From NCBI GenBank assembly GCA_003663565.1, contig QMTT01000004.1, positions 1-10,006 on the forward strand: a stretch of 10,006 nucleotides of DNA, read 5' to 3'. The position numbers and the translations under genes are program-made. Below, in pieces: positions 7,124 through 10,006 of the stretch (the stretch's first letter is position 1; each line of letters starts with the position of its first letter). Origin of the DNA: Thermoplasmata archaeon. GTDB taxonomy: Archaea > Thermoplasmatota > B47-G6 > B47-G6B > 47-G6. Below the pieces are notes generated by a model. That model did not search any database. It was not told the origin of the DNA and saw only the letters and a program-made list of their open reading frames with translations.

Positions 7124-7609
7124 ATGACGTTCTATGTATATATAGATGGTTGGAAGCGTAATATCAGGTTCTCTGCTGCTCACTGGGTTGAGCGTGCAGG
7201 AAAGTGTGAAAGGCTTCATGGCCACGATTATTATGTGAGCATTAAACTCTATGGACCAGTGTCTGACGATGGAATGATTGTGGATTTCAGCATAGTGAAG
7301 TCTGCATTAAAGAAGATTGTCGAAGAATTGGATCATAAAGTACTAGTTCCCGAGAAGAAAGTGACCAAAAGAGAGGATGGTCTAGTTTTTATAAAGAAGG
7401 ATGACAAAATCATGTGTATTCCAGAAGAAGATGTAAAAGTGCTTCCAATAGAGGTTGTTACTGCAGAAGAATTGGCTAAATATGTGGCGGAGAGACTTTA
7501 TGAAATGCTTAGTGATGAAATTAGGAGAAGAGGAATATACCAAATAGAAATATGCATTGATGAAGGTGGAGGTCAGGAAGCATGCCACGTAAAAAAGCTG
7601 TTTGCTTGA
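7124..7609 (+). CDS. queD: 6-carboxy-5,6,7,8-tetrahydropterin synthase (QueD)
   Basis: This 161-residue enzyme of the PTPS family converts 7,8-dihydroneopterin triphosphate to 6-carboxytetrahydropterin, the second step to preQ0. Zinc ligands are His20 (FSAAHW) and His32/His34. The motif C-E-R-L-H-G-H (28-34) is the CxxxHGH signature of true QueD; the ExxHGH form of PTPS-III folate enzymes is absent. The Asp-His pair at 70-71 (LDHKVL) and Glu147 complete the active site. The segment 75-108 is an insertion that is charged and variable. The frame allows an ATG at 7103, but AGAGGTG (7111-7117) lies 6 nt before the ATG at 7124, so I use the latter. It overlaps queC by 28 nt, with queC's own ribosome binding site inside queD. 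Confidence 0.94.
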   Translation: MTFYVYIDGWKRNIRFSAAHWVERAGKCERLHGHDYYVSIKLYGPVSDDGMIVDFSIVKSALKKIVEELDHKVLVPEKKVTKREDGLVFIKKDDKIMCIPEEDVKVLPIEVVTAEELAKYVAERLYEMLSDEIRRRGIYQIEICIDEGGGQEACHVKKLFA

Positions 7610-9293: not shown

Positions 9294-9443
9294 TTATCTG
9301 CCTCCTCTAGGTTCCTTAGCTTTTGGTCTTAGTTTAGTTGAGCCACATCGTCTACAACGTTTTGCTCTTGGAGGATTCCTTGCGCTACATTTCATGCATA
9401 TATACTTATTGAGCAATCTTGCCTCTGCCTCTGGGAATCCCAT
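9294..9443 (-). CDS. rpl40e: Large-subunit ribosomal protein eL40 (L40e)
   Basis: This 49-residue zinc-ribbon protein is part of the archaeal 50S subunit. The sequence opens [19 protein letters not shown], has the zinc ligands Cys16, Cys19, Cys30 and Cys33 (CxxC, 10 residues, CxxC, with [14 protein letters not shown] between and after), and ends [13 protein letters not shown]. These match archaeal L40e proteins along the full length. In eukaryotes the homologue is made as a ubiquitin fusion; here it is free. The ATG at 9443 is preceded by AAGGTGATC (9455-9447). A TATA box lies on the minus strand at 9492-9485, giving a leader of about 20 nt, so it appears to be transcribed alone. It is short enough to be missed by length-filtered gene calling, and a longer spurious frame (9208-9483) covers it on the other strand. 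Confidence 0.95.
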
Positions 9444-9492: not shown

Positions 9493-9532
9493 AGTATAGC
9501 CATGGGAGATAATGGCTTAAGTAATATATAAT

Positions 9533-9601
9533 TATCGCTGTTCTTCCACCCGTTCTGGTCAGCAGTAAACCTCGTTAAGCTGACTTCATTAGAGGGTTTT
9601 C
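9533..9601 (-). mobile_element. Decayed TnpB 3'-end / omega RNA relic
   Basis: On the minus strand this matches the tnpB tail at the left edge of the window in three collinear blocks. 9601-9580 against 10-31 is 19 of 22 identical, all differences being transitions. 9559-9550 (ACCAGAACGG) against 68-77 is 9 of 10. 9547-9540 (GGAAGAAC) against 105-112 is exact. The first block also aligns in the coding frame, giving T-A-E-N-P-L-M-K-S where the other copy has A-P-E-S-P-P-M-K-P, but the frame stops two codons later and is closed upstream. A hairpin GTCAGC/GCTGAC (arms 9584-9579 and 9563-9558) lies between the first two blocks. The space between galT (9750) and this relic is too small for a transposase, so only the end survives. 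Confidence 0.6.
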
Positions 9602-9749
9602 AGCAGTCATTCGGGCTTAGGATTCCACATGTCGAAGATCCTTCACGACAAAAATAAAGTAAGCTCTGAGAATGTTTAAAAATTGTGAAAAATAAGGGAT
9701 TCAAATTTTATTCTTTTAACTATTTATGAAACAGCTTTAGCAAAGGTTA
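9602..9749. other. Intergenic DNA after galT, possible terminator
   Basis: This stretch lies between the galT stop and the TnpB relic. On the minus strand it carries two oligo-T tracts (9692-9688 and 9682-9678) about 60-70 nt after the galT stop, which may end galT transcription. A TGT/CGT-containing stretch near 9625-9650 could be further decayed tnpB, but I cannot align it. Confidence 0.35.
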
Positions 9750-10006
9750 TCACTCTTCTCCTCTTAATATTTTGGCCGCGAGTTCAGGAGGGGTTGGATT
9801 TATATAAAATCCAGTGCCCCACTCAAATCCTGCAATTCTCGTGAGCTTTGGCATGATCTCTATGTGCCAGTGATAGTACTCATAGGGTTTTCCATCGCTG
9901 GGTGCCGTATGAAGCATGAGATTATATGGTGGGTCGTTAACCTTTTCCTTTATGGCCTTTAATGTAACCTTTAGGGCATCTGCAAGTGACTCTATTTCAA
10001 CTCCTC
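9750..10006 (-). CDS. galT: Galactose-1-phosphate uridylyltransferase (GalT), C-terminal 85 residues
   Basis: This is the 3' end of a gene that continues beyond the right edge. The product swaps UMP between UDP-glucose and galactose-1-phosphate (Leloir pathway). Visible parts are the NDPPYNLMLHTAPSDGK strand and loop, then YEYYHWHIEIMPKLTR, whose H-x-H provides metal-binding histidines in GalT of the HIT superfamily, and AGFEWGTGFYINPTPPE, the usual C-terminal end of archaeal and bacterial GalT. The catalytic H-P-H motif lies in the missing part. The stop is TGA at 9752-9750. The GalT product can supply activated sugars for glycosylation, but no direct link to the glycan genes at 1247-4490 is shown. 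Confidence 0.92.
   Translation of the reverse strand, partial: GVEIESLADALKVTLKAIKEKVNDPPYNLMLHTAPSDGKPYEYYHWHIEIMPKLTRIAGFEWGTGFYINPTPPELAAKILRGEE

Follow-up and report, generated by a model that had tools for sequence, protein, structure and literature searches.

Gene content of the window

The window, by which we mean the whole stretch of DNA analysed (10,006 nucleotides of contig QMTT01000004.1 from a Thermoplasmata archaeon), encodes, by best family match, MtnA, a glycosyltransferase, a NOG1-like GTPase, a MurJ-like membrane protein, Hsp20, TIP49, a riboflavin-kinase-like protein, QueD, QueC, QueE and ribosomal protein L40e; the family matches for the glycosyltransferase, the MurJ-like membrane protein, the riboflavin-kinase-like protein, QueD and QueE lie below curated cut-offs. 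The gene set by itself points to an archaeon. A search of genome contigs with QueE returned one Nanoarchaeia locus at 28% identity. The first-pass annotation had described minus 9601-9540 as the relic of a tnpB 3' end that matches, in three ordered blocks, a copy at plus 10-112, close to the window start. The features considered here are as follows.

1-132, plus: open frame cut by window base 1 and closed by the stop codon TGA at 130-132 (HAPESPPMKPGEGRLAITQVTVNQNGSPKGLEVSREELPMTGL); putative TnpB C-terminal tail, with weak likeness to VNQP-type TnpB tails
15-38, plus: H1, a predicted hairpin of the copy with arms CCCTCC and GGAGGG, in the fold of 1-150 and absent from the fold of 10-119
41-70, plus: hairpin H2 of the copy, the stem of the first-pass annotation, GGTTAGCC (41-48) / GGTTAACC (63-70), loop 14, seen in the sequence and in the folds of 1-150 and 10-119
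81-149, plus: predicted hairpin H3 of the copy, a long rod in the fold of 1-150, candidate 3' (right-end) hairpin
9294-9443, minus: ribosomal protein L40e gene, fully open frame (Pfam PF01020, E 5.3e-7, 29.9 bits against a cut-off of 23)
9504-9513, minus: ATTATCTCCC, a possible further block resembling ATTATCCTCC at plus 150-159 (MAFFT alignment A5)
9540-9601, minus: relic, with blocks matching plus 10-112 in order (chained-score test; MAFFT backs blocks one and two, not three)
9558-9584, minus: relic hairpin, GTCAGC (9584-9579) / GCTGAC (9563-9558), loop 15, seen in the sequence

The relic is flanked by the L40e gene, which lies downstream of it on the same strand, and by a minus-strand frame at 9750-10004, which we take to be the end of a galT gene and for which Pfam gave no firm family. 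By eye, a TATA-like stretch lies between the relic and the L40e gene, with the relic 5' of L40e. Antisense to the relic, plus 9620-9649 carries GGAT...ATCC followed by TTCAC, which resembles some right ends; the folding of plus 9600-9650 is no better than chance (z +0.51).

The copy is predicted to fold as a stable RNA

Folding was ranked over 265 tiles, each 150 bases long and taken from both strands at steps of 75, with one relic tile included. A stable sense-strand RNA of several hairpins that spans the stop codon was predicted at the copy and not at the relic: positions 1-150 have a minimum free energy of -60.7 kcal/mol and the lowest folding z of all tiles (z -3.55, rank 1 of 265), and none of 200 shuffles folded as well. 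When 10-119 was folded alone, a different, nested structure was obtained (z -2.52), in which 41-70 is the sole hairpin in common with the fold of 1-150. The eight pairs of H2, with G-U pairs counted, are equalled in 2.5% of shuffles and in 63 of 498 native stretches.

The published accounts of omega RNA (reRNA) offer a frame for this structure. Among 59 TnpB orthologues, conservation is limited to the 3' stem loop near the guide in 11 'Typical' ones and takes in two 5' stem loops as well in 16 'Derived' ones (PMC10278001). The reRNA of ISDra2 is about 150 nt long and corresponds to the tnpB 3' end plus the right end (PMC8612924), and that of Sulfolobus islandicus begins in the coding sequence and extends into the right end (PMC11043419). 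In these terms, the copy resembles the 'Derived' omega RNA of the IS200/IS605 family, being about 150 nt long, spanning the frame end and stop codon and having two predicted 5' hairpins and one 3' hairpin (PMC10278001, PMC8612924). Unlike omega RNA loci, its TnpB body would lie outside the window, and the copy is known from its sequence and predicted fold; neither an element end nor a target motif or guide could be recognised at the copy. Predicted H3 is its candidate right-end hairpin, with the element end not located, and has no counterpart in the relic. Our data suggest that positions 1-150 are a reasonable candidate omega RNA.

The copy compared with tnpB ends

We asked whether the frame ending at 132 could be traced to tnpB. 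Blastn and tblastn searches of plasmids and phages with the copy and the relic returned no match or chance-level matches only (E 2 to 9), and two frames searched against the protein database gave no relative of the copy. In viral contigs searched with five DNA patterns, the 10, 43 and 38 pattern matches inspected included none resembling a related tnpB end. A search of 371 genomes of the phylum of G001 gave no relative of the copy, an empty answer that is uninformative for want of a known match. A PDB search gave one match at E 1.8 and Pfam gave no relative of the copy; Rfam matches of copy and relic were far below curated scores. Since these searches gave no relative, we infer the tnpB identity of the copy rather than demonstrate it.

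As a yardstick, tnpB ends were taken from the phylum of G001 and from viral contigs. Of 279 genomes of that phylum, 65 had a PF07282 match with E no greater than 0.001, and in 43 the match was above the cut-off; one VNQP-type TnpB has relatives in 19 of 371 genomes, its own genome counted. From 268 loci we obtained 40 distinct zinc-ribbon tails, 17 with a VNQ-like motif; for a profile of 15 tails, four near-identical tails were dropped and two were added by hand. The copy tail scored 5.5 bits against this profile and, ranked among its own shuffles, came 21st of 10,001; four of 14,315 peptides outscored it in a pool, drawn from the window and viral loci, that includes the tail itself. With a profile of nine tails it ranked 2 of 5001. 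This test of likeness is weak, since it was chosen after VNQ was noticed in the tail. A DNA profile of the 15 VNQP-type ends (nhmmer) gave a single window match, at 7550-7574 with E 57, and none at the copy. The relic peptide shows no likeness to the 15-tail profile (rank 3535 of 10,001).

Folded singly, VNQP-type ends form tandem hairpins, the second over the V-N-Q-P codons. There, a hairpin GGYTG-8 or 9 nt-CARCC occurs in L019, L024, L025, L026, L027, L031, L125, L136, L138, L145, L148, L204, L230 and L262, and in L161 the motif is present with a break at one pair that is C-G in most. Two of nine VNQP ends (L019 and L138) carry U-A in place of the usual C-G. In fixed columns, one of five pairs changed on both sides and the covariation score was equalled by 93 of 500 shuffles, a count that mixes registers because three of nine rows are offset by one base. 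Like these ends, the copy has tandem hairpins, with the 3' arm of H2 over codons V and N of TVNQNG. In those ends the 3' arm of the second hairpin falls on codons Q and P, whereas the copy reads CAGAA at that place and pairs just upstream; it lacks GGYTG N8-9 CARCC at the V-N-Q-P codons and reads GGTTAACCAGAATGG instead. Other tnpB ends (L004, L006, L010, L011, L014, L015 and L023) carry GGGAGGATGTCAC or a close variant right after the stop codon, possibly a right end.

The relic is probably related to the copy

The bases, both stems, the loops of 14 and 15 and the blocks with their order are present in the sequence as the first-pass annotation had given them. Block one reads GAAAxCCCTCxAATGAAGxCAG in both stretches and block two TTACxGxTxACCAGAAxGG; six of the seven differences in these two blocks are transitions. 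Block three, GGAAGAAC, lies at minus 9547-9540 in the relic and at plus 105-112 in the copy, and the three blocks stand in identical order.

The best local score of 30, which includes one 1-base gap, was equalled in four of 300 Markov windows. The chained score of 44.9 was equalled in none of 100 and then none of 1000 random windows (random maximum 44.2), and the best tile without relic overlap reached 28.4. An adverse control was less favourable: of 38 viral loci picked by block one alone, five (L109, L096, L101, L085 and L086, L101 and L085 being alike in the 60 bases shown) surpass 44.9 against the copy or the relic, so that blocks two and three contribute modest weight. The weight of the similarity sits mostly in block one. 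Three of the 38 loci have CxxC...CxxC in some upstream frame, and their chained scores against the copy are 23.8-26.8. The three-block match stands above chance by its chained score, but MAFFT, which aligns blocks one and two, sets GGAAGAAC of the relic elsewhere than at 105-112 of the copy. On this comparison of sequences, we regard the relic as a probable decayed relative of the copy.

The reading frames of the matched blocks in the relic differ from those in the copy. In frame 3 (3-66 plus; minus 9599-9540), block one reads KPSNE in both stretches with two silent differences, and the copy has a TAA stop inside H2. This frame-3 reading gave no homologue in the protein database; two candidates had words in common with it, none at E up to 10.

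Structure of the relic

The relic tile (9501-9650, minus) is not unusually structured, with z +0.93 and rank 227 of 265. Shorter cuts fold slightly better than shuffles, with z -1.20 for the 62 bases and z -1.27 for another cut (25 and 24 of 200 shuffles as good). A six-pair Watson-Crick stem is as such not rare, being found in 6.4% of shuffles and in 31 of 498 native stretches. In the MAFFT alignment the 3' arm of H1 is unmatched in the relic, and little of H3 is matched, with no counterpart of the hairpin; the relic lacks most of two of the three hairpins predicted for the copy and retains at most one. This lack of structure and the missing hairpin parts fit decay better than a retained guide RNA. 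A box C/D guide RNA was also considered by eye and dropped, the spacing being wrong for one.

Placement of the 5' arm and covariation

The first-pass annotation had set the 5' arm of the relic stem against that of H2 and read the paired change between them as a sign of selection on RNA structure. The stretch between AATGAA and ACCAGAA measures 41 bases in the copy and 25 in the relic. GTCAG of the relic is one base off GCCAG at 27-31 of the copy and one base off GTTAG at 42-46; placing it on 27-31 extends block one ungapped, while placing it on 42-46 needs a gap there. The placement on 42-46 has the lower score in two of four schemes (-4.6 vs -2.5; -14 vs -9) and ties in the other two. MAFFT puts GTCAG on 27-31 with gaps opposite 42-47, and in its alignment no H2 pair is changed on both sides, since seven of its pairs stand opposite a gap and the remaining one is unpaired in the relic. 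The correspondence of the two 5' arms is thus not borne out, since 27-31 fits the relic arm equally well or better. The covariation claim is not supported, because the alternative alignment of the two copies is equal or better: it consists of one double change in two sequences, and the placement of the 15-16 nt gap that it needs is never the better one. Alignment A3 gave no consensus structure, so model R1 was built without base pairs.

Some hints, drawn from two sequences, speak for a stem common to both. If the 3' arm of the relic is kept in register, 0.2% of shuffles of the 27 upstream bases yield a perfect partner, or 2.8% when G-U is allowed. The placement on 42-46 implies three arm changes, one in the 5' arm, where five of six bases are identical, and two in the 3' arm. 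When three changes were made at random, the share of trials in which all six pairs stayed ran from 3%, when transitions made up one third of the changes, to 20%, when they made up nine tenths, and was 4-26% when the changes were split 1 + 2 as seen. All six pairs were Watson-Crick, as in the relic, in 0.5-3.4% of random trials, or 0.6-4.1% with the 1 + 2 split, again according to how many of the changes are transitions; the rarity of this outcome is a hint in favour of the first-pass reading. It is possible that the H2 stem is common to both copies.

Discussion

We consider it somewhat probable that the relic is a decaying 3'-end fragment of a gene carried by a transposon; this gene would resemble the one that ends at 132 and is most likely a tnpB with an omega scaffold. 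What we observe directly is the sequence relation, the exceptional stability of the copy, the parts missing from the relic and the ambiguity of the covariation; from these we infer the tnpB identity, the omega RNA function and neutral decay. The tnpB 3' end would double as the scaffold of the omega (right-end) guide RNA, with H1 and H2 as 5' hairpins and H3 as the 3' right-end hairpin in the intact copy. TnpB would bind this scaffold, use the downstream guide and cut DNA. In the relic H1 is without its 3' arm and H3 is largely missing, and the six-pair hairpin near the place of H2 may be a survivor or the product of a deletion that joined neighbouring bases. The first-pass proposal that the copy is a tnpB 3' end gains slight support from the tail rank of 21 of 10,001, with no relative in the searches. 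Its proposal of an omega RNA (reRNA) made from that end is consistent with the strong three-hairpin fold of the copy strand, which has omega/reRNA size and layout.

A less likely, though serious, reading is that H2 is a conserved omega RNA hairpin, that the copies diverged while functional so that the paired change reflects selection, and that the relic later lost the rest. It draws on the rarity of an in-register partner among shuffles (0.2% Watson-Crick, 2.8% with G-U), on the agreement of five of six bases of the 5' arm and an all-Watson-Crick outcome in 0.5-4.1% of random trials, and on the V-N-Q-P hairpin of VNQP-type ends, in which two of nine (L019 and L138) show U-A at a pair that is C-G in most. 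Set against this, the alternative placement is equal or better and is the one MAFFT chose, the evidence is one double change in two sequences whose pairs would all stay in 3-26% of random trials, and fixed-column covariation in VNQP ends is not above shuffles (93 of 500), in a count that mixes registers because three of nine rows are one base out. We think it improbable that the likeness in block one and in short words arose by chance between unrelated stretches: the chained score was reached in none of 1000 random windows, the blocks are in order and six of seven differences are transitions, even though the local score was equalled in four of 300 random windows, five of 38 loci picked by block one beat the chained score and the third block is unaligned by MAFFT.

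Two readings in which the relic still works appear highly improbable. A stand-alone RNA under selection, such as an orphan guide RNA or sRNA gene, would account for the hairpin, and transcription is compatible with it; yet its structure does not exceed chance (the 150-base tile has z +0.93, the 62-base cut z -1.20), no Rfam match comes near its curated score and there is no counterpart of H3, the 3' stem loop being kept in both the 'Typical' and 'Derived' clades (PMC10278001). Just as improbable is that the relic is a minimal, still transcribed scaffold with the central hairpin only, used in trans by a TnpB elsewhere, the paired change reflecting selection.

The organism of the copy is without close relatives in the sequence sets searched. 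A compensatory change that is read across a gap in two sequences may reflect the placement of the gap, and such changes call for caution. Were the first-pass annotation right, an omega RNA hairpin maintained by selection would be seen at two places in the contig. Our data suggest instead that the relic is probably ordinary mobile-element debris, related to the stretch at positions 1-150 that is our candidate omega RNA.
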